Below, piece by piece: positions 33,320-47,452 of a stretch of DNA of 64,000 nt. Below the pieces are notes generated by a model, which searched no databases, was not told where the DNA came from, and saw nothing but the letters and a program-made list of their open reading frames with translations. A program made the position numbers and the translations under genes. Position 1 is the stretch's first letter; every line of letters begins with the position of its first letter. The DNA comes from an uncultured Chlorobiaceae bacterium (GTDB taxonomy: Bacteria > Bacteroidota > Chlorobiia > Chlorobiales > Chlorobiaceae), in NCBI GenBank assembly GCA_903843305.1, contig CAIMPI010000031.1:1-64000 (forward strand). Reading direction: 5' to 3'.

Positions 33320-34117
33320 ATGGGGATCAAAAAAAAGTGTGCCGTGCTTGCATGCGCACTATCCACTTCCCTGATGGCCTCGTCTGTGGTGAGAGCAGAA
33401 GATGTTAAAGGGAGCTTGTCAATACTCTATTCGCATCAAAAAACAGTACTCAGTGCAGGTCAGTATTTATCAAACCCTGTGGGTTTTGCTACTCAGCTTC
33501 CTATTGATCATGAAAATACAGGTAATGGGTATTATGGGTTCCAGGGCGAGGTCAATTATGGAAGATATTTGCTGTCAATTGATTACCTTAGCGGTACCTC
33601 CAAAACTATTGTTGGGGCGCTTGATGATGTCGGAAATGGCGTACCTTATTCAACGTCTTTTAATCCATTGACCCATGAGACCGCAGAAGTGCTTGATCTT
33701 AGTGCAGGTTATACTCTTGTTGAAAATGGGGCTAATGATAAATTGGCAGCAACGCTTGGATATTTTCGTATGTGGGCAAGTCCAACAATTTCAGCACCAA
33801 ACTGGTATGATGGCTTGGAAATAGGGGTAAAAGGAAAGTATTGGGTTTTTGACAGGTTAGCTTTAACCGGTAAACTGGGTTATGTTCCCAATGTGTCGGT
33901 TCACGGGTATATGAAAGCTGAAAATATCATGATCGGAGATTATTTGGTGAACTATACTGTTGGTGCGGAAGTGCCCTTGGCTGGCGGTATGAGTATTATT
34001 GGTGGGTACAAGAACCTCAGGGCCCAAAATACCGTTATTCTTAAAAATCCCGCAGCGGGAAGTAAAGCTATTGTGAAATTCAGCGGATTATTTGTAGGCG
34101 CTATGTGTAATTTCTGA
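33320..34117 (+). CDS. Outer-membrane beta-barrel-like protein with signal peptide
   Basis: A 265-residue secreted protein. Residues 1-27 are a classical signal peptide (KKKCAVLACALSTSLMAS, cleavage after VRA). The mature part is rich in alternating hydrophobic and polar residues, Gly, Tyr and aromatic pairs, and ends in Phe (VGAMCNF), as outer-membrane barrel proteins do. About eight to ten strands would fit. No specific family is recognised. It has a strong ribosome-binding site and opens the thirteen-gene same-strand cluster. Confidence 0.75.
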   Translation: MGIKKKCAVLACALSTSLMASSVVRAEDVKGSLSILYSHQKTVLSAGQYLSNPVGFATQLPIDHENTGNGYYGFQGEVNYGRYLLSIDYLSGTSKTIVGALDDVGNGVPYSTSFNPLTHETAEVLDLSAGYTLVENGANDKLAATLGYFRMWASPTISAPNWYDGLEIGVKGKYWVFDRLALTGKLGYVPNVSVHGYMKAENIMIGDYLVNYTVGAEVPLAGGMSIIGGYKNLRAQNTVILKNPAAGSKAIVKFSGLFVGAMCNF

Positions 34118-34176
34118 GTGTCAAGCGAGAATATGCACGGTAGGTTATAATATTTTCACATTTTATGTAAATAATT

Positions 34177-34515
34177 ATGGACTTCAAGAAATTTCTTGAC
34201 AATCACATAAGGCTCCTGTCAGAAGGTGATGTAGGTGCATTAGTGGAGAGTGATTACCATGATGATGCGGTAATGATTCTGATGCTGGGCGATAAAGGGC
34301 AAGTCATTTCCGGTAAAGATGCTCTTAAAGTGCAATTTGACATGTATCTGAAAAACATTTATCGCGGCTTTATTTCTCTTCAGAAGTTAGTCACTTTTGA
34401 GGATTCAATATGTCTGGAAGCCAGGATAAATACCTCGGGTGGTGAAGCCAACGTTTGGGATGCACTCTATATGAAAAACGGAAAAATTTTTCGCCATTAT
34501 TCCGGCATGATGTGA
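34177..34515 (+). CDS. NTF2/SnoaL-like small protein (copy 1)
   Basis: A 112-residue cone-fold (NTF2-like) protein by pattern: an N-terminal helix (FLDNHIRLLSEGDVGALVE), the Tyr-His-Asp-Asp-Ala turn (DYHDDAVMI), GKDALKVQFDMYL, and a final strand pair GEANVWDALYMKNGKIFRHYSGMM. Such proteins bind or isomerise small hydrophobic molecules, or act as non-catalytic partners. It shares GEAN...GKI-x2-H-x2-GM with the protein at 38350, so the two are paralogues. It lies 28 bases before a DJ-1/PfpI gene. Confidence 0.77.
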   Translation: MDFKKFLDNHIRLLSEGDVGALVESDYHDDAVMILMLGDKGQVISGKDALKVQFDMYLKNIYRGFISLQKLVTFEDSICLEARINTSGGEANVWDALYMKNGKIFRHYSGMM

Positions 34516-34543
34516 TCAACAATATCAACGTAAAAGGATAGCC

Positions 34544-35293
34544 ATGAAAAAAGTATTGGTACTTGCATCAAATCTTGGACTTTGGGGTGAAGAACTTCAG
34601 GCTCCATGGGACGCGCTGAACAAGGCTGGTTTTAAGTTGACCCTTGCGACAGAAAAAGGAATTACTCCTCTTCCCTTACAGTTAAGTGTCGACAAAAATT
34701 TTGTTGATCCTGTTCAACAGTATAATGTAAATCCAGGAGAAGTTGTCGACCGGATTTTGGAAATACTTCAAACTGGTGAATGGGACAACCCGATAAAAAT
34801 CTCTGAGGCAAAGGCAGATGATTATGATGCAATGGTCATTGTCGGTGGGCCGGGATCTCCCCTTGATTTGGTTGGAAATGCAAAAGTACACCGGCTTCTT
34901 GAAGATTTCTATGCACAGGGAAAGATTATGGGAGCGTTGTGTTATGCTGTTGGAGCATTTGTTTGGGCGCGCAAACCGGAGGATGGCAAAAGCATCATTA
35001 CAGGCAAAACAATTGTTGCTCATCCAAAAGAGTGGGACTTCACCGATGAACTGCCCTATCCACTTTATAATGCCTCTCCCGAAAATCCCGGAACAGATCT
35101 TGTTACACCAGGATTTGCTTTTCCACTTCAGGTCATCGTGGAAGATGCGGTTGGGGATACAGGAAAAGTAATTGCCATACCATCAGCAAACAGGAAAAAT
35201 CCGGTTGTCCATTTTGATTTTCCATTTGTTTCGGCCCAATCAGTTGAGTCAAGTATTGCATTTGGCAATAAATTGGTTGAGGTTCTATCATAA
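34544..35293 (+). CDS. DJ-1/PfpI superfamily protein (copy 1)
   Basis: A 249-residue DJ-1/PfpI domain protein of the larger Hsp31-like kind. The nucleophile elbow is ALCYAVGAF with Cys133, and the supporting acidic residue is in WGEELQAPW (Glu16/17). VIVGGPGSP is the glycine turn. Family members act as glyoxalase III (2-oxoaldehyde to hydroxyacid), deglycase-like or amidase-like enzymes; substrate cannot be read here. It pairs with the NTF2-like gene just upstream, an arrangement repeated at 38350-39627. Confidence 0.87.
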   Translation: MKKVLVLASNLGLWGEELQAPWDALNKAGFKLTLATEKGITPLPLQLSVDKNFVDPVQQYNVNPGEVVDRILEILQTGEWDNPIKISEAKADDYDAMVIVGGPGSPLDLVGNAKVHRLLEDFYAQGKIMGALCYAVGAFVWARKPEDGKSIITGKTIVAHPKEWDFTDELPYPLYNASPENPGTDLVTPGFAFPLQVIVEDAVGDTGKVIAIPSANRKNPVVHFDFPFVSAQSVESSIAFGNKLVEVLS

Positions 35294-35368
35294 TAATAGC
35301 AGTTGTTCTTGTAACAATACCTGTCAGTCTGTAAGACAACATTTATAAGACTTAATAACGATAAGGCA

Positions 35369-36193
35369 ATGAATCCTGAAAAAAAATTGGTTATCAAAAT
35401 AATCGAGAGGGGACATGTGCATATTCATTGTTGCGCAACTCCTGATGATGGCGAAAGAGTCAATGCCCAGATTATAGAAACTGCGAATAAATTGGTTATT
35501 GTCGACACTACGTTGCTGAGGCCTTATGCCAAAGAGTTACGGGAATATGCAGATAGTCTTGGTAAGCCGATTGATCGTGTTTTTGTAACACACGCTCATC
35601 CTGATCACTGGTTTGGTCTTGAGTATTTTCAGGATTTGGATGTTTTTGCGTTTCTTGAAACAATTGAGGAGATTAAAAATTTTGCTCAGATCGCACTCGA
35701 TTTTCATAAAACTCAGCATGGCGATTTGGTTACCGACACGGTTTATTTGCCTGATAAACAAATTGTTGATAGTGAAGTTGTTATTGATGGAGTTCGGTTC
35801 AGGTTGTTTAAAATAGTAGCGGCTGAAGATCTTTTTATGTTGGCTCTTGATTTACCAGAAGAGAAGGCCTTTATAGCCCAGGATTTATTGTATAACAAGG
35901 TACATCTGTTTGTGGGCCAAAGATCTCTTGATGGAACGTTGTGTTTTGATGGGTGGATAGCTGCGCTGAAAAAATTTCAAAACGAAAATTATGAAGTTGT
36001 TCTGCCCGGTCATGGTGTCCCTGCTGATGCCTCTCTCTTTCAGGAAAATATCAGTAATCTTGAAAAGGTAAAAAGCATCCTGTTAGCTTCAACTGGGGAA
36101 AATTTTGTGCAAAATATTTTAGAAGCATTTCCGGATTATGGGCTCAGGTCGATGGTGGAAATGTCGGCATTTTTTCTTTTTCAAATGAAGTAA
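35369..36193 (+). CDS. Metallo-beta-lactamase-fold hydrolase
   Basis: A 274-residue MBL-fold protein. The metal motif HxHxDH is THAHPDHWFG at about residue 73-81. A later Asp is in FIAQDLLYNKVH and a final His in VLPGHGVPAD. These supply a dinuclear metal site, so it should be an active hydrolase, for example of a thioester or lactone. Glyoxalase II-like activity would fit the neighbouring DJ-1 and VOC proteins, but this is inference. No signal peptide is seen. Confidence 0.88.
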   Translation: MNPEKKLVIKIIERGHVHIHCCATPDDGERVNAQIIETANKLVIVDTTLLRPYAKELREYADSLGKPIDRVFVTHAHPDHWFGLEYFQDLDVFAFLETIEEIKNFAQIALDFHKTQHGDLVTDTVYLPDKQIVDSEVVIDGVRFRLFKIVAAEDLFMLALDLPEEKAFIAQDLLYNKVHLFVGQRSLDGTLCFDGWIAALKKFQNENYEVVLPGHGVPADASLFQENISNLEKVKSILLASTGENFVQNILEAFPDYGLRSMVEMSAFFLFQMK

Positions 36194-36214
36194 TTATTAC
36201 ATAGGGAGAATCAA

Positions 36215-37708
36215 ATGAAACGTTCTAAAAAACATGCCATTAAAAAACTGCAATCGTGCTGTTCAGCAATTGCGGCTACTGGCTTATTTATTTGTGGGGC
36301 TTCTGTTTACCCTGACACCGTTTTTGCCGCTGCTGATAATCCTAAGATTGATTATGGATTAACTGCCGGTTTTTCGACGATGTCTATAAACAATACGCAT
36401 TTTGGTTTGGGTCAGCTAAATGTAACGTATTACCCACAGGATATTGCCAGGTCAGAAGGCTATTTAGCTCCAAGTGCTAATTTATTATGGAAAACATCTG
36501 ATTCAGGAACTATATATGGAGGATTGCGAGCAGTTGGTTCTATGACCAGGGGAGATGGTGATAGTTGGGGTTTGACGGCGGATTTACATCATGATTACAC
36601 TCAAGGGCGATTTGTAATGGTCGGAGAAAGCATGTCATACCTCAACATAGATAAGCTATATCTGGGATGGAAGTCCGCTGATCTGATTCCTTTTCTGGAT
36701 AAAGATGGATTGGACATTAGTGTTGGTAAACAGAATTTCCAGCTTGGTGATGGTATGGTTCTGACCGATGGAAATGATGAGGCCAACCCACATAAAGGTA
36801 TTTATTGGCTTGATCCTCGCCAAGGCTGGAATAATTCAGCAATAGTGCGTATCAAATCTTTGCCATATCAGGCAGAGCTATTTTATCTTCAATCAAATAG
36901 TTATAGTTTAGATATTGCTTCCGGTGGTTATACTGATGATATTTTTACTGATAATATTGTAGGAGGAAATCTTGAATTTGTTAATGCCAAGCGCGGAAAG
37001 ATTGGCGTTTCATACTTTAATATTACGAGTTCAAACAATCCTGAACGTGACGGGTTGAGTGTTACTGGTTTACATGGTCGGGGAAATCCTCTTTCAACAC
37101 TCCAGAACCTTGAGCTGGCAGGTGAAGTGGATTTTCAGAAGAATAAAAACAGTGCTATAGACAGGGATGCTGTCGCATGGTTCGCTGAAGCAAAATACTT
37201 TATGCCAGAGTTGCCTTGGCACCCGACGCTTGGATACCGTTATTCATCATTTTCAGGTAATAAGCCGGGTACAAGTAAAAACGAAGGTTGGGATTACCTG
37301 TACAATGGCTCAACTGAACGCGGTTTTGGGTACTGGTATCAAGGGATTGTGGTCGGAACCTATGAAACTCGTTTGAGCAACCTTGATACACATTTTGTCA
37401 ACTTGACTCTGATGCCTCCTGTCAAGGGTAGCTGGATGAAGTTGCTCTATTATAATTATCAGTTTAATGAGCCCAGTACAGCTCAATCAATCCTCGGTAC
37501 ACCTATATCAAGCAGAAGCTTTGCTTCGGAATGGGATGTTATTCTTGGTTATTCTCCTACACCAAAGGTTGACTATATGGTAGTTTATGGAAATGCAAAA
37601 CCTTATCAGGGAGGTATTGATCGTGTTTCCGGAACTGCTAATAATACATATTATTACGATGATAAACACTCAACCATGCTTCAGTTTACAATGTTGTACC
37701 ATCTTTGA
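36215..37708 (+). CDS. Outer-membrane porin, alginate-export-like
   Basis: A 497-residue outer-membrane protein. It has an Arg/Lys-rich leader with hydrophobic core (residues 1-39, likely cleavage near VFA-AAD), then a long series of amphipathic strands with Gly, Tyr and Trp typical of an 16-18-strand barrel. ISVGKQNFQLGDGMVLTDG is reminiscent of the alginate export porin family. It ends FTMLYHL. A ribosome-binding site (gggag) precedes the ATG. As the only channel in the cluster it is the likely route for its substrate or product. Confidence 0.82.
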   Translation: MKRSKKHAIKKLQSCCSAIAATGLFICGASVYPDTVFAAADNPKIDYGLTAGFSTMSINNTHFGLGQLNVTYYPQDIARSEGYLAPSANLLWKTSDSGTIYGGLRAVGSMTRGDGDSWGLTADLHHDYTQGRFVMVGESMSYLNIDKLYLGWKSADLIPFLDKDGLDISVGKQNFQLGDGMVLTDGNDEANPHKGIYWLDPRQGWNNSAIVRIKSLPYQAELFYLQSNSYSLDIASGGYTDDIFTDNIVGGNLEFVNAKRGKIGVSYFNITSSNNPERDGLSVTGLHGRGNPLSTLQNLELAGEVDFQKNKNSAIDRDAVAWFAEAKYFMPELPWHPTLGYRYSSFSGNKPGTSKNEGWDYLYNGSTERGFGYWYQGIVVGTYETRLSNLDTHFVNLTLMPPVKGSWMKLLYYNYQFNEPSTAQSILGTPISSRSFASEWDVILGYSPTPKVDYMVVYGNAKPYQGGIDRVSGTANNTYYYDDKHSTMLQFTMLYHL

Positions 37709-37770
37709 TACAGCTCAAACTGATAGTAATAGTTTAGCTTCAAAAATACATTGATGTAATCGCTGAGAGT

Positions 37771-37803
37771 AAAGTCCCTGCAGCTTTGTTGCTGGGCTTT
37801 ATT
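37771..37803 (+). terminator. Weak terminator or attenuator after the porin
   Basis: An imperfect hairpin formed by aaagtccctgcag and gttgctgggcttt, followed by attca rather than a T-run. It sits in the 141-base gap between the porin and the next NTF2-like gene, the largest gap inside the cluster. It could reduce read-through or protect the mRNA end. Confidence 0.35.
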
Positions 37804-37849
37804 CACAAACAAGCAAGATTAATAACCAAAAACAATTTGGAGTAATCTA

Positions 37850-38287
37850 ATGGCAAAACCTTTATCTGAATCGGAAGTAGCAGATCTTGTAAAGATTTGG
37901 TACAAAAAGCTTGATGTTCATGCTTCCTTGCTGGAATTTTTACCCTTGCTTGGAGATGATACTCTTGAGATGACATTTCCTGAAGCAACACTTCATGGCT
38001 TGGTGGATTTTGAAAAATGGTATGAGAGAGTTATTCGAATCTTTTTTGATGAGGTGCATCTACTGAAGGAGGTAAAAATAAACCTTCAGGGCGATTCTGC
38101 TGAAGTTAATCTTATCGTTGAATGGCAAGCAAGTGTATGGAATCCTCCAGCAGCAAAGAGTGAAAGAATCAAGCTTGATGCTGATCAAGCCTGGGTTGTA
38201 CAACGATCTGAGAAATCAGGCGATCCTGTAATCGTCAAGTATGTCGTTAATGCGTTGAATTATCAGGAAGGTTCGGCGAAGTTATAA
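37850..38287 (+). CDS. NTF2-like protein (copy 2, divergent)
   Basis: A 145-residue protein with the NTF2/SnoaL-like order of elements: two N-terminal helices (DLVKIWYKKLD and ASLLEFLPLL), the DDTLEMTFPEATLHG strand turn, WYERVIRIFFDEVH, and three long strands (SAEVNLIVEWQASVW to VKYVVNALNYQ). It differs from the other two NTF2-like proteins of the cluster and lacks their GEAN/GKI-H-GM signature. Its function is unknown. It starts the second NTF2/NTF2/DJ-1 module. Confidence 0.75.
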   Translation: MAKPLSESEVADLVKIWYKKLDVHASLLEFLPLLGDDTLEMTFPEATLHGLVDFEKWYERVIRIFFDEVHLLKEVKINLQGDSAEVNLIVEWQASVWNPPAAKSERIKLDADQAWVVQRSEKSGDPVIVKYVVNALNYQEGSAKL

Positions 38288-38349
38288 ATGACGCTGCACA
38301 ATAGCAGCATTGCTGGAGATATCTTTTTAATACTATCAAGGGGAAAAGT

Positions 38350-38742
38350 ATGAAAAATGTTCCTGACAGCCCTATGGGCAAGATGTATAAAGCGCATATT
38401 CAGTTTATTTTAGACAAGAACATTGAAGCATTGCTTGATCAATATACTGACGACGCATTGCTGATTAGCAGCTTTATGAAAAAGCCTCTTATTTATAAGG
38501 GTCGGAATGAGTTGCGTGAGCATATGCAGGGCATTCTTGGTATTCAAAACCTTGAAACAGAAATAATATTCTGGTCAGAGACGGTTGAGCCGCAAACCCT
38601 CATGATTACAGAACAAATCACCATGCAAACTGCTGATGGTGAAGCCAACATGCGCTTCGCAGATAGTTGGGTGCTTCGTGATGGCAAGATTGCTATTCAT
38701 TTTGCCGGAATGGTACAATATCCTGATGGATCTCTTGCATGA
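38350..38742 (+). CDS. NTF2/SnoaL-like small protein (copy 3)
   Basis: A 130-residue NTF2-like protein: MYKAHIQFILDKNIEALLDQY helix, TDDALLISSF turn, GRNELREHMQGIL helix and the late GEANMRFADSWVLRDGKI, then HFAGMV. The GEAN...GKI-x2-H-x2-GM pattern is shared with the protein at 34177, so it is its paralogue. A ribosome-binding site (aagggga) precedes the ATG. A DJ-1/PfpI gene follows after 54 bases, as for the first copy. Confidence 0.78.
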   Translation: MKNVPDSPMGKMYKAHIQFILDKNIEALLDQYTDDALLISSFMKKPLIYKGRNELREHMQGILGIQNLETEIIFWSETVEPQTLMITEQITMQTADGEANMRFADSWVLRDGKIAIHFAGMVQYPDGSLA

Positions 38743-38796
38743 TTAAGTAAAATAAATCCTCCGTTTTTTATCAATAATTCCTAAAAGTAAATATTC

Positions 38797-39627
38797 ATGA
38801 ATAAGAAAAAAGTTCTGGCGATTCTCTCTGAATATGGATACTGGGGAATCGAATTGGTTGGCCCCTTGAATAAACTTGAAGCAGCGGGTTATACTGTTGA
38901 TTTTATGACTCCCAACGGTAAACCCGCAGATGCTCTTCCTCCAAGCTTTGACTCAACCTATGTTGATCCACCACTTGGTATCTGTGTAACAACAAAGCAG
39001 CACGAAAATGATGTGAAAGCCTTTATTGATAAAAATCGTACATCTGCCCCACTCTCGCTTAAATCCTACATTCCAGAAAGACCCTACTATTCGGCAGCTA
39101 ATTTTCTAAGAAATCTCGAACAATATTATACCAAGGTCAAAGAATCTGTTGAGTTTCTAACCAGTGAATATGACGCGTTGTTTGTTGTTGGCGGAAGTGG
39201 ACCAATTGTTGATTTAGTGAACAATCAAAGCCTCCACGAGTTGATCTTGGGATTTTACAGAAAAGATCAGCCAGTTGCAGCAATTTGTTATGGTGTTGCA
39301 GCTCTTGTCTTTGCAAGAGATTTCAATGAACGAAAGAGCATTATAAAAGGTAAACATGTTACCGGGCATTGTATCGAATATGATTATCACGATGGAACAG
39401 GGTTTCTTCACACCGACTTTAATATGGGTCCCCCACCGTATGTTCTTGAATATCTCTTGACCGATGCAGTGGGCCCTTTTGGCCAGTATCATGGTAATTT
39501 TGGAAAAGAAACTTCTGTGATAGTTGATTATCCGTTTATAACAGCACGTTCATTACAATGTTCTTATGAAATGGGCGACAAATTTGTGGACGTGTTAAAC
39601 AATGGACTCAAAAGATATGGCTGGTAA
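38797..39627 (+). CDS. DJ-1/PfpI superfamily protein (copy 2)
   Basis: A 276-residue paralogue of the DJ-1-like protein at 34544. Shared landmarks are the N-terminal YWGIELVGPL (Glu19), STYVDPP, VVGGSGPIVDLV and the nucleophile elbow AAICYGVAALVFAR with Cys164. A DYHDGTGFLHTDFN segment near residue 196 is unlike copy 1 and may shape the pocket. Its 3' end overlaps the ThDP enzyme gene by 11-26 bases, so the two are translationally coupled. Confidence 0.86.
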   Translation: MNKKKVLAILSEYGYWGIELVGPLNKLEAAGYTVDFMTPNGKPADALPPSFDSTYVDPPLGICVTTKQHENDVKAFIDKNRTSAPLSLKSYIPERPYYSAANFLRNLEQYYTKVKESVEFLTSEYDALFVVGGSGPIVDLVNNQSLHELILGFYRKDQPVAAICYGVAALVFARDFNERKSIIKGKHVTGHCIEYDYHDGTGFLHTDFNMGPPPYVLEYLLTDAVGPFGQYHGNFGKETSVIVDYPFITARSLQCSYEMGDKFVDVLNNGLKRYGW

Positions 39628-41323
39628 AACTGGAAATCAAAAGATTCTGGAGCAGTTTGTTGCCGACGGGTTTACCTTTATGTTCGGCAACCCAGGTACA
39701 GTAGAGCAAGGTTTTCTTGATGCGCTCGCAGATTATCCTCAACTACATTACATTCTTGCCTTGCAAGAGTCTGTTGCCGTAATGATGGCTGATGGGTATG
39801 CGCGAGCGACAAAACGACCGGCACTTGTACAACTGCACAGTAGTCCTGGTATTGGTAATGCTGTTGGTGCGCTTTATCAGGCAAAACGAGGGCATGCCCC
39901 TCTTGTATGTATTGGCGGCGATGCAGGAGTCAAATATCTCAATATGGATGCCCAGATGGCTGCCGATCTTACAGCTATCATGGAGCCTGTGACAAAATAT
40001 GCTACGGTTGTTTATGACAGGAATTCCGTACTACGCACCCTGCGTCGTGCAATTAAAATTGCGTCAACCCCTCCGATGGGGCCGGTATACGTCTGCCTGC
40101 CGCTTGATGTTCTGAGTCAAATCAATGATGAAGAGGTTTTTCCGACTCATATTCCTGATACAGCAACCATACCCGCTGATGACAAAATAGCGCTTTTTGC
40201 GAGGGAGTTGCTTGGTGCCGCTAAACCGGTTATTTTCATCGGTGACGGAGTCGCCTATTCTCATGCTGAAAACGAACTGACTCGGGTTGCTGAGCTTATT
40301 GGCGCTGAGGTCTATGGTGTCGATGTTGGTGATCTCAATATGGATACGACGCATCCACTCTATTGTGGAACTACTGGTCATATGTTTGGAGCCGCCAGCT
40401 TGCCTATAACCATCAAAGCTGATGTGCTTCTGATTGTTGGTACCTATATGCTGCCTGAGGTATTTCCTGAGCTGGGTAATGTTTACAACAGTAATGCACG
40501 TGTCCTTCATATCGACTTGAATGCCTACGAGATTGCGAAAAACCATCGGGTCGATTACAGCTCAGTGTCAGATCCAAAACTGACACTGACCGAATTAGCG
40601 CAAAAGCTTCAGCAGCTTATTACTCCTCAGTATCGGCAAGATGCAGAGAAACGCACCCGGGAAATTCAGGATAATAACAAGAAAAGTCGGACTCATCAGT
40701 TTGAGCTGGATAGTGCGAACCGTGAATCTGTTCCGATGTTTATGTCCAGATTCATGGAAGAGCTTGCTCCAAGACTTCCTGAAGATGCAGTTATTTTTGA
40801 TGAAGCCCTTACCAATAGTCCTGCTCTGACGAGATATTTCCCGCCTCGGAAAATTGGTTCTTATTTCAGTACTCGAGGAGGTTCTCTTGGTGTTGGTTTT
40901 CCAGGCGCTATCGGGTTGAAGCTTGCCAATCCTGACAAAGTTGTTATAGGGTTTTCAGGTGATGGAGGCTCTATGTACACCATCCAGGCTCTCTCTTCGG
41001 CCAAAAGGCATAAGATCGGGGCCAAGTTTATTGTTTGTAATAATGGCGCTTATCGTTTGTTGCAGGTGAATATAAAAGAGTACTGGAAAGAGCAGCAAAT
41101 CGAGAATCGGGAGATGCCGGTTCCATTCGATTTATCGGTTCCGGAAACAAGATTTGATCTGCTTGCCCAGTCTATGGGGGTGGATGCCGTGAGGGTTGAA
41201 ACAGTTGAAGATATACCAGGAGCAATTACCAGGATGCTTGCTGACGATAAGCCGTTCCTGATTGACTTGGTACTTGAGGGAGATACACATCCTCATCTGG
41301 TCAATGTTCGATGTGGGCAGTAA
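39602..41323 (+). CDS. ThDP-dependent decarboxylase (benzoylformate decarboxylase / acetolactate synthase-like)
   Basis: A 573-residue thiamine-diphosphate enzyme with the standard three domains. The catalytic Glu56 lies in LALQESVAVMMADGYAR. The ThDP-magnesium motif runs from GDGGSMY near residue 454 to the NN pair about 28 residues later (FIVCNNGAY). HSSPGIGNAVGAL resembles benzoylformate decarboxylase more than acetolactate synthase, and no regulatory subunit gene is nearby. It should act on a 2-oxoacid, either decarboxylating it or condensing it with an aldehyde. An ATG at 39617 is an alternative start. Confidence 0.88.
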   Translation: MDSKDMAGKTGNQKILEQFVADGFTFMFGNPGTVEQGFLDALADYPQLHYILALQESVAVMMADGYARATKRPALVQLHSSPGIGNAVGALYQAKRGHAPLVCIGGDAGVKYLNMDAQMAADLTAIMEPVTKYATVVYDRNSVLRTLRRAIKIASTPPMGPVYVCLPLDVLSQINDEEVFPTHIPDTATIPADDKIALFARELLGAAKPVIFIGDGVAYSHAENELTRVAELIGAEVYGVDVGDLNMDTTHPLYCGTTGHMFGAASLPITIKADVLLIVGTYMLPEVFPELGNVYNSNARVLHIDLNAYEIAKNHRVDYSSVSDPKLTLTELAQKLQQLITPQYRQDAEKRTREIQDNNKKSRTHQFELDSANRESVPMFMSRFMEELAPRLPEDAVIFDEALTNSPALTRYFPPRKIGSYFSTRGGSLGVGFPGAIGLKLANPDKVVIGFSGDGGSMYTIQALSSAKRHKIGAKFIVCNNGAYRLLQVNIKEYWKEQQIENREMPVPFDLSVPETRFDLLAQSMGVDAVRVETVEDIPGAITRMLADDKPFLIDLVLEGDTHPHLVNVRCGQ

Positions 41324-41380
41324 CACCGTGTAAACACAGCGAAATCTTCTCTAATTAACATTTTTAAAGGAAGATAATTT

Positions 41381-41947
41381 ATGAAACTAAAGGATAAAAA
41401 AATCGCAATTCTCATGGAGAGCGATTTTTACGAACCGGAAATCTTCTATTACCAGCGCAGATTTCTTGAAGAAGGGGCCGATCTGCGCCTTCTTACCAGG
41501 CTTTGGGGACAAAACTCATTGACGTTTAAAGGTCATGAGTATCATATCCCACTTGAGGTATCTGGAACTTTTGAGGGGATCAGTGATGAAGAACTTTCAA
41601 CGTATGCCGCAATCATTGTTCCGGCAGGCATGGTTTCCGACAGACTCCGTTATACTGATGATCTAAAGGTAGTTCCGCCTGCCTCGACTTTCATGAAGCG
41701 CGCGTTTGGAAATAAAAAAATCATCAAGGGGGTAATCTGTCATGGATTATGGCTGCTTGCTCCTGTACGGGAAGTTATTGCAGGCCGTAAACTTGTCTGT
41801 CACAACAACTTGTATAGTGATGCCAAGGCTTACGGTGCAGAGTTTATTGACCAGGATGTTGTTGTTGACCATGATTTGGTTACAGCGAGAACCGGTGGAC
41901 ATTGCCATCTTTTTGCAAGAAAGATTATTGATTTGATCCCCAATTAA
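41381..41947 (+). CDS. DJ-1/PfpI family protein (copy 3, short PfpI type)
   Basis: A 188-residue PfpI-like protein. The nucleophile elbow is GVICHGLWLLAP with Cys120-His121, as in PfpI, and the acidic partner is in SDFYEPEIFYY (Glu18/Glu20). AAIIVPAGMVSD is the glycine turn. VVVDHDLVTARTGGHCHLFARKI near the C-terminus matches the ending of the PfpI group. It is shorter than the other two and more likely a different activity within the same superfamily. Confidence 0.87.
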   Translation: MKLKDKKIAILMESDFYEPEIFYYQRRFLEEGADLRLLTRLWGQNSLTFKGHEYHIPLEVSGTFEGISDEELSTYAAIIVPAGMVSDRLRYTDDLKVVPPASTFMKRAFGNKKIIKGVICHGLWLLAPVREVIAGRKLVCHNNLYSDAKAYGAEFIDQDVVVDHDLVTARTGGHCHLFARKIIDLIPN

Positions 41948-41962
41948 TTAATCCGATCCATC

Positions 41963-42376
41963 ATGAAATTTGTTCATGTAGCACTTTCCTGCTCTGATCT
42001 GGAGAAAACCGAGAAGTTTTATAGTAAATATTTTGGGTTTAAAAGAGCAAGATATATCCCTCTTGGTGACGGCAATGCCATTGTTTTTATCAAATGTGGT
42101 GATTTTTATCTTGAGCTTTTCAGAGCCGAATCCCCAAGACCGATTCCACAGGCTGATAAAGATGGACAGAATTATCCCGGCTGGCGGCACATCGCTTTTC
42201 AGGTCGATAGTCTTGATGCATTTATTGCAGAGTTCAACAACGAGCTTGATATCTCTCTCGGGCCTCTCGATTTCAGCAGTTTTATCCCGAATTGGAAATC
42301 TGTATGGGTTAAAGACCCAGACGGAAACATCATTGAAATAAGTCAGGGTTACCAAGATGATTTAACCGGAGTTTGA
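41963..42376 (+). CDS. VOC-superfamily protein (glyoxalase/dioxygenase fold)
   Basis: A 137-residue vicinal-oxygen-chelate protein made of two beta-alpha-beta3 halves. MKFVHVALSCSDLEKTEKFY carries the first metal-binding His (residue 5); WRHIAFQVDSLDAF carries the second; VKDPDGNIIEISQ near the end carries the conserved Glu. A complete ligand set is therefore likely. Glyoxalase I is one possibility given the DJ-1 and MBL neighbours, but the family is catalytically diverse. Confidence 0.87.
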   Translation: MKFVHVALSCSDLEKTEKFYSKYFGFKRARYIPLGDGNAIVFIKCGDFYLELFRAESPRPIPQADKDGQNYPGWRHIAFQVDSLDAFIAEFNNELDISLGPLDFSSFIPNWKSVWVKDPDGNIIEISQGYQDDLTGV

Positions 42377-42378
42377 TT

Positions 42379-44475
42379 ATGGTACAAAAAAAAAATATTG
42401 TTATTGAAAGGGGTGCTGCTCATCCGCTTGGCGCTACACCTGATGCCAACGGAGTAAACTTTTCAATTTTTTCTGAAAACGCTTCAGGCATAGAGTTGTG
42501 CCTTTTCGACAGGCACGATGATTTTCATCCATTCCAGACCGTAAAGTTAGATCCCGGTATCAACCATACGTTCCATTTCTGGCATGTCTATATCAGGGGT
42601 TTAAAAGCTGGCACTCATTATGCCTATCGAGTCGATGGAGTTTATGCACCAGATCAGGGTCATTTATTCAACAGGAACAAGGTTGTAATAGATCCTTATG
42701 CTCGAGGTAATACCGATGAACTTTATGACAGGGGAGAGGCTTGTCATGATAGAGATAATATCACAACGTCAATGCGTAGCGTAGTCATTGATGAAAAAAA
42801 GTATGACTGGGAGGGGGATAAGCCGCTGAACACCCCTATGAAAGACAGCATTATTTATGAAATGCATGTTCGCGGATTTACTAAAGACGATTCAAGCGGC
42901 GTTAAACACTCCGGGACATTTCGTGGAGTCGTTGAAAAGATTCCTTATCTCAAAAAGCTTGGAGTTACAGCAGTCGAGCTCCTTCCTGTTTTTGAGTTTG
43001 ACACGAAGCAGGTACTGAAAACCATGCCTGATGGAACGGAGCTTAAGAACTATTGGGGGTATAGTACGGTAGGTTTTTTTGCTCCAGTAGGGAGGTACTG
43101 TTGTAAGCCAGAAGAGGGAGACCATCTCAACGAATTCCGTGATATGGTTAAGGCTTTCCATAAAGCAGGTATCGAAGTTATTCTTGATGTTGTTTTTAAT
43201 CACACCGACGAAGGAAACCATAAAGGGCCAGTACTCTGTTTTAAGGCGATAGACAATGCCATTTATTACCATCTGGTTGATGGTGATAAAAAGTATTACA
43301 TGGATTATACAGGGTGCGGTAATACCGTTAATTGTAATCACCCAATTGTTGAAAAATTTATTACGGACTGCCTTGCGTTTTGGGTTAACGTTATGCACGT
43401 CGATGGTTTCCGGTTCGATGAGGGTTCGGTGTTGAGTCGAGGAGAAGATGGTCGTCCTCTTGCTCATGCTCCAGTGATCTGGAATGTTGAGCTGATGGAT
43501 ACGTTTGTCAATACAAAACTGATTGCCGAGGCATGGGACGCTGCAGGTGTTTATCAGATCGGTTCATTTCCCGGCTACCGATGGGCAGAATGGAATGGTC
43601 GTTACCGTGATGATATCCGCAGATTTGTTAAAGGCGATGGCGGGATGGCAGCAACGGTAGCATCAAAGCTGTCGGGTTCAAGCGATATCTACCAGCATAG
43701 TCGGCACACTCCCTTGAATTCCATCAACTTTATTACCTGCCATGATGGATTTACCATGATGGATCTGGTGTCGTACAATGAAAAGCACAACTTTGCCAAC
43801 GGTGAGGATAATCGGGATGGCAATGATGGCAACGACAGTTGGAACCATGGAGTTGAAGGCGCAACCGATGATCCTGGCATTAACGAGTTCCGGAAGCGTG
43901 AAATAAAAAACTTTATCTCAATTCTTATGCTTTCCCAGGGCGTCCCCATGATCCTTGGTGGTGATGAATTCGGACGCACACAACAAGGCAACAACAATAC
44001 TTATTGTCAGGATAACAAGCTTAATTGGTTCGACTGGCAACTGACAGAAAAAAATAATGATCTCCTTCATTATTTTACAGAAATGATCAAGCTTCGCAGA
44101 TCATTATCCTCATTGAGACGCTATAGTTTTTACGATGGCAAAGCAATCAATAGCAGAGGAATGCGTGATATTGAATGGCATGGATGCAGGCTGCTTGCGC
44201 CGGGCTGGAATGATCCTGAATGCAGGGTGCTGGCATTCACTATTGCCTCTTTTGTTGAAAGCGAGCCTGATATACATGTTATGCTCAATATGAGTATGGA
44301 AAACCTTGACTTTGAAATTCCGCAAATTGACACTTTTGAGTGGTTGCGTTCAGCGGATACATCATTGCAATCTCCTCAGGATATTGTAGATATTCGAAAG
44401 GCAAATGTTATTGTCGAAAAGAGTTACAATGTTAAAGCCCATTCTTCTGTAATTTTAGTCTCAAAAGCGAGGTAA
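42379..44475 (+). CDS. glgX: Glycogen debranching enzyme GlgX
   Basis: GlgX hydrolyses alpha-1,6 branch points of limit-dextrin glycogen, releasing short maltodextrins. It has the N-terminal CBM48 (HPLGATPDANGVNFSIFSENAS), region I DVVFNHT, nucleophile Asp in GFRFDEGSVL, acid/base Glu in LIAEAWDAAG, and Asp in ITCHDGF. FGRTQQGNNNTYCQDN is characteristic of GlgX/isoamylase. At 698 residues it is full length. The ATG at 42379 starts 2 bases after the VOC gene stop. Confidence 0.95.
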   Translation: MVQKKNIVIERGAAHPLGATPDANGVNFSIFSENASGIELCLFDRHDDFHPFQTVKLDPGINHTFHFWHVYIRGLKAGTHYAYRVDGVYAPDQGHLFNRNKVVIDPYARGNTDELYDRGEACHDRDNITTSMRSVVIDEKKYDWEGDKPLNTPMKDSIIYEMHVRGFTKDDSSGVKHSGTFRGVVEKIPYLKKLGVTAVELLPVFEFDTKQVLKTMPDGTELKNYWGYSTVGFFAPVGRYCCKPEEGDHLNEFRDMVKAFHKAGIEVILDVVFNHTDEGNHKGPVLCFKAIDNAIYYHLVDGDKKYYMDYTGCGNTVNCNHPIVEKFITDCLAFWVNVMHVDGFRFDEGSVLSRGEDGRPLAHAPVIWNVELMDTFVNTKLIAEAWDAAGVYQIGSFPGYRWAEWNGRYRDDIRRFVKGDGGMAATVASKLSGSSDIYQHSRHTPLNSINFITCHDGFTMMDLVSYNEKHNFANGEDNRDGNDGNDSWNHGVEGATDDPGINEFRKREIKNFISILMLSQGVPMILGGDEFGRTQQGNNNTYCQDNKLNWFDWQLTEKNNDLLHYFTEMIKLRRSLSSLRRYSFYDGKAINSRGMRDIEWHGCRLLAPGWNDPECRVLAFTIASFVESEPDIHVMLNMSMENLDFEIPQIDTFEWLRSADTSLQSPQDIVDIRKANVIVEKSYNVKAHSSVILVSKAR

Positions 44476-44478
44476 ACA

Positions 44479-46647
44479 ATGGAAAAAAACAAATTTGAGT
44501 TTACATTTTCTGATACGATTCAGGGATATGTAACCCATTTCGATTGGGATAAGCAGATTTTTTGTCTTGACACTTCAGATGGAAGAACTTTCGAAGTCAA
44601 ACTCGCTGCGAATATTTATGCTGAATTAGTCAGAAATCTCGGTGAGGCGTTTATTGACTGTACAGGTCAGATAAAGGATATGCTTGCCCCTGGCAGATTT
44701 CTCTATGTTTACGGAGTCTTCTTTCCTGAAGATGAAGTCAAGTTTGAAGCCAAGCATTTAGTATTTCTCGGTAAGGATGAACAAGAGTTTCGTTTTGAGA
44801 AACAGGACTGGTGGATCAAGCAGATTCGTCAACTCGGTGACTTTTATCTTAAAGCCCAGTTTCCTGATGGTGATGTTGACTACCGTAAATACAAAACCAA
44901 CCTTTCACTTGAGGGAGAACAAACTGGTAATTTCCGTCAGGAAACTGATACCATGTCACGTCTTGTCTATGGTTTTGCAACAGCTTACCTTTTGACTGGC
45001 GATGATCGATATCTTGAAGGCGCAGAAAAAGGTACGGTCTATTTACGTGAGCACATGCGCTGCAAGGATACCAGTGAAAACATCACTTACTGGTACCATG
45101 GTATTGATGTCAAAGGAAAACACGAACGGAAGATTTTTGCTTCAGAATTCGGTGATGACTATGATGCCATCCCGGCCTATGAGCAGATTTATGCGCTTGC
45201 TGGCCCGACACAGACATACCGAGTAACCGGCGATCCCGAGATTGCGAGCGATATTGATATGACGCTTAATCTTTTTGACAAGTACTTTTATGATCGGCAA
45301 CTTGGCGGTTATTTCTCACATATTGATCCAGTGACCTTCGATCCAAACGCAGAATCTCTTGTGGGCAATCGTGGACGCAAGAACTGGAACAGTGTCGGTG
45401 ACCATGCGCCAGCTTACCTGATTAATGCCTATCTTGCCACAGGTGACGAGCGTCTGAAAAAGATGCTTGTCAACACGGCCGATACTATCACAGAGCATTT
45501 TCCTGACTATGAGCACAGTGCTTTCGTACAGGAAAAGTTCCATGCTAATTGGGAACATGATTCCACCCATGGCTGGCAGCAGAATCGGGGTGTTGTAGGT
45601 CATAATCTGAAAATTGCCTGGAACTTGACTCGTATCAACAGTGTTGAAGGTCTTGAGCCAGAAAAAAGTGCAGCTTACATGGAATTTGCCCACAAAATCG
45701 CAGCTCTTATGCCTGAACATGGTTGTGACCGGCAACGTGGCGGCTGGTACGATGTTGTTGAAAGAACTCTTGAAGACGGCCAGAAATTCCACCGGTATGC
45801 ATGGCATGACCGTAAAGCATGGTGGCAGCAGGAACAGGGAATACTTGCCTATCTTATTCTTTTTGGCACAACTGGCAAAAAAGAGTATCTCAAGCACGCC
45901 AGAGAGTCCAGCGCTTTTTACAGCGCATGGTTCCTTGATCAGGACAGCGGCGGGATATATTTTAACGTATTGGCTACTGGTATTCCATATTTGCTGGGTA
46001 CTGAAAGGCTCAAGGGCAGTCACAGCATGAGTGGTTATCACTCATTTGAACTGGCCTATCTTGCTACTGTCTACCAGAACTTGCTGATTACCAAACAGCA
46101 CCTTGACCTCTATTTTAAACCATATCCTAATGGCTTTAAGGACAACATTCTTCGTGTTGCCCCTGACATTCTCCCTGCAGGATGTGTCAAGATTGAAACT
46201 GTATGGATCGATGGAAAGGAGTATCAGGATTTTGATGCTGATAATCTTACGGTAAAGCTTCCAGAAACTCAAAATCGTGTTAAAGTTCAGGTTCGCCTTG
46301 TTCCGGTTGGCAGTGTCGAACATTTCACGATGACTGTTGATCAGGATGGTGACATTCTCAAATTGACACTTTCAGGTGAACTGGATCATGTGGCAATTCA
46401 CTCATTCAGAAAAAATCTTGTAGAGATTGCCTCTAAAAATCCCGCCAAAGTAGCTTTTGATATGACAGCGCTTCAGTCCCTCGTTGAAGAAGCAGTACGC
46501 ACAATAATATTCGAGAAGCAGAAAATGAATATTGATTGTGACGTCTATATTTGCGGAGCAAATGAAGAGGTTAAGACGTTCTTTGATCGTGAAGAGCTTG
46601 CTGAGGAGGTTGTTTTACTTGATACTTACGATAAGTCAAAAATGTAG
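44479..46647 (+). CDS. AGE-family epimerase/isomerase fused to a C-terminal STAS domain
   Basis: A 722-residue three-part protein. Residues 1-105 form a beta-rich domain (IQGYVTHFDWDKQIFCLDT). Residues about 110-545 are an AGE (N-acyl-glucosamine 2-epimerase/cellobiose epimerase) alpha/alpha-barrel, with GHNLKIAW, WHDRKAWWQQEQG and MSGYHSFELAYL holding the typical His/Glu residues. Residues about 615-722 are a STAS domain aligning with SpoIIAA through the SGELDH motif. At the SpoIIAA phosphorylation position the usual Asp-Ser is replaced by Val-Glu (669-670). It begins 3 bases after glgX stop. The epimerase substrate is unknown. Confidence 0.86.
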   Translation: MEKNKFEFTFSDTIQGYVTHFDWDKQIFCLDTSDGRTFEVKLAANIYAELVRNLGEAFIDCTGQIKDMLAPGRFLYVYGVFFPEDEVKFEAKHLVFLGKDEQEFRFEKQDWWIKQIRQLGDFYLKAQFPDGDVDYRKYKTNLSLEGEQTGNFRQETDTMSRLVYGFATAYLLTGDDRYLEGAEKGTVYLREHMRCKDTSENITYWYHGIDVKGKHERKIFASEFGDDYDAIPAYEQIYALAGPTQTYRVTGDPEIASDIDMTLNLFDKYFYDRQLGGYFSHIDPVTFDPNAESLVGNRGRKNWNSVGDHAPAYLINAYLATGDERLKKMLVNTADTITEHFPDYEHSAFVQEKFHANWEHDSTHGWQQNRGVVGHNLKIAWNLTRINSVEGLEPEKSAAYMEFAHKIAALMPEHGCDRQRGGWYDVVERTLEDGQKFHRYAWHDRKAWWQQEQGILAYLILFGTTGKKEYLKHARESSAFYSAWFLDQDSGGIYFNVLATGIPYLLGTERLKGSHSMSGYHSFELAYLATVYQNLLITKQHLDLYFKPYPNGFKDNILRVAPDILPAGCVKIETVWIDGKEYQDFDADNLTVKLPETQNRVKVQVRLVPVGSVEHFTMTVDQDGDILKLTLSGELDHVAIHSFRKNLVEIASKNPAKVAFDMTALQSLVEEAVRTIIFEKQKMNIDCDVYICGANEEVKTFFDREELAEEVVLLDTYDKSKM

Positions 46648-46678
46648 TATTAATTAGTTATAACCTACTATTACAATT

Positions 46679-47452
46679 ATGACAGATGTATTGTTTCTTG
46701 TCAGTGTAACAGGTTTAGTAATGGCTGTTTCGGTGTTATGCCTTCTGATCATTAGAAAAGTGTATGGGCATTCATTGATGGCTAAGCATAATGATGTTGC
46801 CGGGTTTATTTATGCGGTAATTGGAGTTATTTATGCTGTTTTACTTGCATTTGTTGTAATTGTGGAGTGGGAGATGTTTCGGGACGCCGATGGCAAAGTT
46901 CAGGAAGAGGTTCAGTGTATGGCCTCGGTGTTCCGTGACGTTGAGGTGTTCGATGAACCACAGAAATCATTAGTCGCGAAGGAAATTGTAAACTATACCA
47001 ATATCGTGATCAATGAAGAGTGGGCATTGATGGCTAAAGAGGAAGCAAGTGAAAAGGCGGTGAAATCGATCAGGCGTATTTTTACCCTGGTAACAGAAAT
47101 CAACCCCGCAAATGAGCATCAAAAAATTTGGTATCAGGAAATTGTCACCAGGCTTAATAACTTTCATAACGCACGAAACCATAGAGTGCAAGCAGCCAAG
47201 GAAAGTATTCCTGACTTCATGTGGAGTATAATGATTGTCGGTGCCGTAATTACCATAGGTTTCAGTTTTCTCTTTGGTACAGAGAATTTATGGGCACAAT
47301 CTTTTATGGTTGCGTCACTTGCAGGAATAATTACTCTTGTACTTCTTTTGATTGTTGCTCTTGATCATCCCTATGCAGGTATCATCATTGTAAAACCAGA
47401 AGCCTTTGTGGATCAGCTCGTTCGTTTTAAGGACTTTCTTGTAACGCAATAA
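46679..47452 (+). CDS. DUF4239-like membrane protein
   Basis: A 257-residue integral membrane protein with two N-terminal spans (VLFLVSVTGLVMAVSVLCLLII and FIYAVIGVIYAVLLAFVVIV), a cytoplasmic or periplasmic helical middle of about 120 residues, and two C-terminal spans. DVAGFIYAVIGVIYAVLLAF with a following EWEMFRDAD is the hallmark of the DUF4239/bestrophin-like family. It is the last gene of the cluster, 31 bases after the AGE-STAS gene. No function is established. Confidence 0.83.
   Translation: MTDVLFLVSVTGLVMAVSVLCLLIIRKVYGHSLMAKHNDVAGFIYAVIGVIYAVLLAFVVIVEWEMFRDADGKVQEEVQCMASVFRDVEVFDEPQKSLVAKEIVNYTNIVINEEWALMAKEEASEKAVKSIRRIFTLVTEINPANEHQKIWYQEIVTRLNNFHNARNHRVQAAKESIPDFMWSIMIVGAVITIGFSFLFGTENLWAQSFMVASLAGIITLVLLLIVALDHPYAGIIIVKPEAFVDQLVRFKDFLVTQ

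Follow-up and report, generated by a model that had tools for sequence, protein, structure and literature searches.

The closest described relative of the locus treated here is the icfG cluster of Synechocystis PCC 6803 (slr1852-slr1862), in which genes for a DJ-1/PfpI protein, an AGE-fold protein, a STAS protein and the glycogen debranching enzyme GlgX lie side by side. The same four are adjacent in Synechocystis salina (L084). In Synechocystis, icfG mutants are affected in their carbon use (PMC12329169), and slr1852-slr1862 is repressed by salt (PMC8670252). The cluster has been regarded as a regulator of carbon metabolism since the 1990s; the purpose of its enzymes is left unexplained in the literature searched. 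Further systems that invite comparison are the glucose 2-epimerases and cellobiose 2-epimerases of the AGE family, the benzoylformate decarboxylases and the glyoxalases I, II and III.

The window analysed here is a stretch of 64,000 nucleotides (contig CAIMPI010000031.1, positions 1 to 64,000) from an uncultured Chlorobiaceae bacterium. Between positions 33320 and 47452 it contains 14 ORFs, all on the plus strand, as judged by ORF list and fold assignment (Table 1). Among them are three DJ-1 proteins, three NTF2/SnoaL-like proteins, an MBL-fold hydrolase, a ThDP-dependent enzyme, a VOC protein, GlgX and an AGE-STAS fusion. A sequence-only reading had named this same-strand array and its folds, and both are real by ORF and profile evidence. 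Its title, however, counted thirteen genes and omitted the DUF4239/bestrophin-like gene ending at 47452, which is found near AGE in 11 of 80 AGE loci (see below).

The intergenic gaps range from -26 to 141 nt (in array order 59, 28, 75, 21, 141, 62, 54, -26, 57, 15, -4, 3 and 31 nt). An in-frame ATG of GlgX at 42379 implies that the overlap of -4 with the VOC gene may in fact be a gap of +2. The GC content of the array is 42.0%, versus 45.9% and 45.8% in the flanks. Within the array, 44 promoter-like sites (36.2 +/- 6.4 by chance) and 17 terminator-like sites (13.8 +/- 3.8 by chance) were counted; these internal signals are near chance, and a single operon is therefore compatible with the data. 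Rfam and tRNA features are absent from the window. The left border (CDF) is common to the window and one relative (G028), while the right border differs. A clean empty site was sought in relatives and not found: G028 matches at the left border only, and in cluster-free Chlorobium the window's left flank does not lie 5' of LolD-FAD.

Table 1. Genes of the array, with coordinates in the window and the matches on which their assignment is based.
Gene product	Position	Strand	Evidence or remark
OMP1, putative outer-membrane barrel	33320..34117	+	no Pfam/NCBIfam match
NTF2a, SnoaL-like	34177..34515	+	PF12680 E 1.4e-4, under cut-off
DJ1a, DJ-1/ThiJ-like, Cys133-Tyr134	34544..35293	+	PF17124 51.8 bits, PF01965 48 bits
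MBL-fold hydrolase	35369..36193	+	PF00753 49.5 bits
OMP2, outer-membrane barrel, weakly alginate-export-like	36215..37708	+	PF13372 (Alginate_exp) E 0.0047
NTF2b, divergent SnoaL-like	37850..38287	+	alignment; orthologue in L061 over SnoaL_2 cut-off
NTF2c, SnoaL-like	38350..38742	+	PF12680 34.3 bits, over cut-off; alignment
DJ1b, Hsp31/ThiJ-like	38797..39627	+	PF17124 74.1 bits; 26-nt overlap with ThDP
ThDP-dependent enzyme, benzoylformate-decarboxylase/acetolactate-synthase-like	39602..41323	+	three TPP domains
DJ1c, PfpI-type	41381..41947	+	PF01965 65 bits
VOC protein	41963..42376	+	PF00903 55 bits
GlgX glycogen debranching enzyme, TTG start	42373..44475	+	TIGR02100 743 bits, over the curated cut-off of 640.9
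AGE-STAS fusion	44479..46647	+	PF07221 60 bits, PF01740 43 bits
DUF4239/bestrophin-like membrane protein	46679..47452	+	PF14023 205 bits

Same-strand genes may, of course, be neighbours by accident, and scans for internal promoters and terminators cannot demonstrate one operon. That unrelated genes were merely juxtaposed is nevertheless hardly credible, since the same families are found together again, rearranged, in other phyla and on plasmids. Barring assembly or contamination artefacts, chance is refuted by co-distribution. The AGE-STAS protein, used as query, yielded 80 loci from many phyla, and the genes surrounding these were matched against the window's proteins: GlgX lies near AGE in 73 of the loci and a DJ-1 protein in 56. 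A betaproteobacterial contig (L016) contains 13 of the 14 families, arranged differently, with its DJ1a 83-84% identical to that of the window. Membership is kept while order changes, which favours function over inheritance of a block.

The ThDP enzyme tells the same story. Around it, 35 loci contain AGE (31), GlgX (29), DJ1c (29), DJ1b (27), NTF2b (19), VOC (18), NTF2c (14), MBL (7), DJ1a (6), OMP2 (5), OMP1 (3) and NTF2a (3); many of these loci had been picked via AGE, so that the figure for AGE cannot be taken as independent, and some contigs are truncated. In Chlorobium, AGE-STAS (at least 94% identity) occurs in 5 of 37 genomes and ThDP (87%) in the same five (hypergeometric 2e-6). Among 291 cyanobacterial genomes, 30 contain AGE, 13 ThDP and 10 both, with 1.3 expected; if three known AGE carriers are removed, AGE is present in 8 of 11 ThDP genomes versus 1.0 expected (p 3e-7). 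All these p-values ignore phylogeny and shared ancestry. DJ1b accompanies ThDP in all 13 ThDP-carrying cyanobacteria. In nine of the ten double carriers AGE and ThDP share one contig, within about 20 kb, and two of the three cyanobacteria that have ThDP without a close AGE orthologue possess a more distant AGE (38%) within that cluster (L125, L126). Plasmids behave likewise: all 14 ThDP records, from five phyla, also carry AGE, and copies are found in Runella, Deinococcus, Streptomyces, Nostoc and Gemmobacter.

The association is not absolute. A ThDP orthologue is lacking in 8 of the 20 AGE genomes examined, and the two halves can therefore exist apart. An evenly drawn gammaproteobacterial sample, too sparse to bear on this, gave 1 of 321, this one being the sample's own centre genome. 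The AGE tree mixes phyla: Chlorobium groups with two unplaced MAGs, then with Thiodiazotropha, apart from the Ignavibacteria sequence. Another Chlorobium (G016, L134:1-10000) has a divergent version with an AGE of 41-43% lacking STAS, a DJ1b-like gene (47%), a separate STAS and an ankyrin protein. In the Chlorobium copy of G014 (L132:16275-19900) DJ1a occurs twice around OMP1, which suggests local duplication.

The gene set recurs across many phyla, its order varying and many copies lying on plasmids. The array is almost certainly one local form of a conserved gene module that has spread horizontally. The sequence-only reading had named independent distribution in relatives as the finding that would speak against it; in the relatives, the genes travel together. 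The core of the module is GlgX, the AGE-fold sugar enzyme, STAS and the PfpI-type DJ-1 protein; to this are added a near-obligate DJ1b-ThDP pair, NTF2/SnoaL and VOC proteins, and redox or hydrolase genes.

The AGE-STAS protein consists of an N-terminal beta domain (residues ~1-100), an (alpha/alpha)6 AGE domain and a C-terminal STAS domain (~611-722). Its AF2 model has a pLDDT of 85.6, and the predicted structure shows the fold of aldose 2-epimerases. The best PDB matches of the barrel are glucose 2-epimerase (8h1l/8h1k), with cellobiose 2-epimerase also near; Foldseek gave E values of about 1e-16 against solved 2-epimerases and TM scores to target of 0.73-0.82. The likeness extends to the GHN..AW motif. 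The Glu of the GHxxE motif is important in the aldose 2-epimerases of the AGE family. Here, in contrast, the motif reads GHNLK, and K378 is invariant in 36 sequences. With Lys378 in place of the conserved Glu, the reaction may not be an epimerisation. The N-terminal beta domain and STAS are likewise extra to the known 2-epimerases. A proposal that lti46.2 of Anabaena is an AGE-STAS gene was unsupported by search.

The nearest solved relatives of the ThDP enzyme are benzoylformate decarboxylases (E 7e-58). It shares with them the ThDP Glu and the equivalent of His70; Glu56, His79 and Arg425 are invariant in the alignment. Unlike them, it lacks an equivalent of His281 in the alignment and has the extra invariant Arg425. 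It reaches 299 bits against the benzoylformate decarboxylase model NF005485, below the cut-off of 493. Its partner DJ1b has invariant Cys164-Tyr165 and Glu19 (32/32), and DJ1a has Cys133 in 9/9 and Tyr134 in 8/9 sequences, with Phe in the remaining one. Neither has the His next to Cys that belongs to the Cys-His-Glu/Asp triad of glyoxalase III (HchA/Hsp31). DJ1c differs: Cys120-His121 with Glu18/Glu20 is found in 35/35 sequences, as expected of the Cys-His and upstream Glu of PfpI/YhbO, at a score of 75.3 bits versus a TIGR01382 cut-off of 139.05.

The remaining folds also recall glyoxalases. The VOC protein keeps the four metal ligands of glyoxalase I (H5, E51, H76 and E125; 25-26 of 26 sequences at three positions, H or Q at the fourth), yet it scores 28.1 bits against the GloA model (cut-off 165). 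In the MBL protein H75, H77, D79, H80, D172 and H215 are kept and invariant in 8 sequences. Its Glu153, equally invariant, lies about where the third site-1 His is expected, a placement made by eye against known MBL motifs. The full His/Asp ligand set of glyoxalase II is thus incomplete, and the score against GloB is 15.9 bits (cut-off 200.8). All three glyoxalase-related folds, VOC, MBL and DJ-1, are present with candidates far under the equivalog cut-offs. The sequence-only reading had assigned them to oxoaldehydes or glutathione-type adducts. This now looks less strong than was claimed: it finds partial backing in the retained catalytic sets of VOC and DJ1c, and is weakened by MBL, with Glu for a ligand His, by the Cys-Tyr of DJ1a and DJ1b, and by the scores.

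These residues bear on an alternative, in which DJ-1, VOC, MBL and NTF2 proteins would protect against carbonyl stress by detoxifying or repairing glyoxal-type damage derived from sugars, being induced with glycogen use, while the ThDP enzyme would remove 2-oxo by-products. The intact ligand set of VOC and the PfpI-type Cys-His of DJ1c are in its favour, as is the stress-responsiveness of the icfG-type cluster in Synechocystis (PMC8670252). The altered MBL and DJ1a/DJ1b sites and the low glyoxalase scores, however, make it unlikely, as do the GMC oxidoreductases, EthD proteins and ester-cyclase-like genes of sister clusters, which exceed the needs of detoxification.

These sister clusters are instructive. 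Apart from GMC oxidoreductases and EthD proteins, they add glucose 1-dehydrogenase, glucosidase, lactonase, many SnoaL/ester-cyclase genes and alpha/beta hydrolases, and also GlgB, a GlgE-type maltotransferase-domain protein, TreS and GalU. One Streptomyces copy adjoins GlgB and the maltotransferase-domain protein, another TreS and GalU; a glycogen synthase is near the Runella copy, and malQ, glucosidase and glucose 1-dehydrogenase are near the Nostoc copies. Such sugar and glucan genes suggest that the chemistry concerns sugars and is built around a glucan store. Small proteins resembling Nif11 or nitrile-hydratase leaders lie within or next to cyanobacterial copies (L173:14549-15209, L075:2904-3633, L170:11069-11785, L049:2437-3120), mostly near GMC oxidoreductases and with no obvious RiPP maturation enzyme. 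Another cyanobacterial copy encodes a 1090-aa protein in which SnoaL-like domains are joined to NHL/SMP-30 repeats (L125:7584-10856).

Of the three NTF2-like proteins, NTF2b itself has no Pfam match; its L061 orthologue just passes SnoaL_2 (27.5 versus a cut-off of 27). Its FFDExH motif is invariant, and in relatives it often directly follows ThDP. The barrels OMP1 and OMP2 were found only in Chlorobium copies and in L016, where the OMP2 orthologue matches Alginate_exp with E 0.00014. For OMP2, AF2 with five sequences gave a pLDDT of 28.7, and its profile had zero matches in the PDB. Two cyanobacterial copies have OprB-like porins, recognised by Pfam in L137 and by eye in L131. The secretion of a product that the sequence-only reading had envisaged finds no backing here: no part of the set is less widespread than the barrels, and an inner-membrane exporter could not be recognised among the 14 genes.

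The same point weighs on a second alternative, the biosynthesis of a small molecule, be it a natural product or an osmoprotectant, from glycogen sugar, with SnoaL/NTF2, GMC, EthD and ThDP proteins as tailoring enzymes and the barrels for release. Plasmid carriage, the SnoaL/ester-cyclase, GMC, EthD and hydrolase genes of sister clusters and the small leader-like proteins near GMC genes agree with it. A scaffold-forming synthase, RiPP maturase or exporter is, however, not recognisable, and we consider this alternative possible but rather improbable.

Tentatively, and somewhat short of an even chance, we regard a glycogen-fed pathway of AGE, ThDP, DJ-1, VOC and NTF2 steps, encoded by the module, as the best explanation. 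GlgX would debranch stored glycogen, and the AGE domain would convert the aldose or reducing-end sugar thus set free. A 2-oxo or dicarbonyl sugar derivative might arise by oxidation elsewhere; GMC, glucose dehydrogenase and lactonase genes are available for this in sister clusters, whereas the array lacks these oxidases. The ThDP enzyme would then decarboxylate or condense this derivative, and DJ1b/DJ1c, VOC and NTF2 proteins may handle reactive carbonyl intermediates. The sequence-only reading had already held plausible a pathway linking glycogen breakdown with sugar epimerisation; the tie of glycogen breakdown and the AGE-fold enzyme to ThDP, DJ-1 and VOC genes is borne out across phyla. What we infer of the chemistry, next to the observed co-inheritance, pairing, motifs and folds, namely substrate, step order and product, is rather doubtful in its particulars.

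Could the enzymes be mere passengers of carbon-status signalling, in a partner-switching island of the icfG kind? Apart from icfG biology itself (PMC12329169), it is the copies in Runella, Deinococcus and Streptomyces that suggest this, since in them STAS is retained alongside an ATP-binding/anti-sigma protein, a SpoIIE phosphatase or both. In the plasmid copies of Streptomyces (L169:16083-21475) and Deinococcus (L168:20196-25683), STAS and SpoIIE are followed by a MinD/ParA ATPase, and the Streptomyces plasmid also has an anti-sigma factor beside them. The present array does not fit. Its STAS domain aligns with SpoIIAA, but Glu670 occupies the position of the phospho-serine Ser58; in 72 fused proteins this residue is Ser or Thr in 37 and neither in 35. 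No kinase or phosphatase is encoded among the 14 ORFs, and a regulatory island is accordingly quite improbable. For both reasons, STAS here probably serves for docking, or acts constitutively, instead of working as a phosphorylation switch. The one clear HATPase_c_2 (RsbW-like) match of the genome is on another contig (G000:C15:76842-93391), where some 16 kb separate it from a further STAS gene and a GH13 gene lies in the interval.

In comparison with the icfG cluster, then, the array likewise sets AGE, STAS and GlgX side by side and includes a PfpI-type gene, AGE and STAS being fused. It lacks the anti-sigma kinase, the SpoIIE/IcfG phosphatase and the carboxymuconolactone-decarboxylase-like gene, and it adds DJ1a, DJ1b, ThDP, VOC, MBL, three NTF2 proteins and two barrels. 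Kinase and phosphatase being absent and the phospho-serine replaced by Glu670, the array is not an icfG switch; with two icfG features missing, it is a related variant, not a member. That the system is undescribed, as the sequence-only reading had it, is true for the extended set, of which no description was found in a literature search confined largely to papers free of subscription; the core is that of the icfG cluster of cyanobacteria, a system not mentioned in that reading. It is nearly an even bet, if slightly less, that the set is a plasmid-mobile pathway across phyla in which a non-canonical AGE enzyme and the ThDP/DJ-1 pair lead to a new product, the icfG operon being its reduced form. 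If so, the pathway exists in at least Chlorobiota, Cyanobacteriota, Pseudomonadota, Actinomycetota, Deinococcota, Bacteroidota, Planctomycetota and Chloroflexota, and can be put to test in cultivable Nostoc, Streptomyces, Deinococcus and Runella. The icfG core within a larger, plasmid-borne, cross-phylum set with a DJ1b-ThDP pair thus provides a concrete enzymatic hypothesis.
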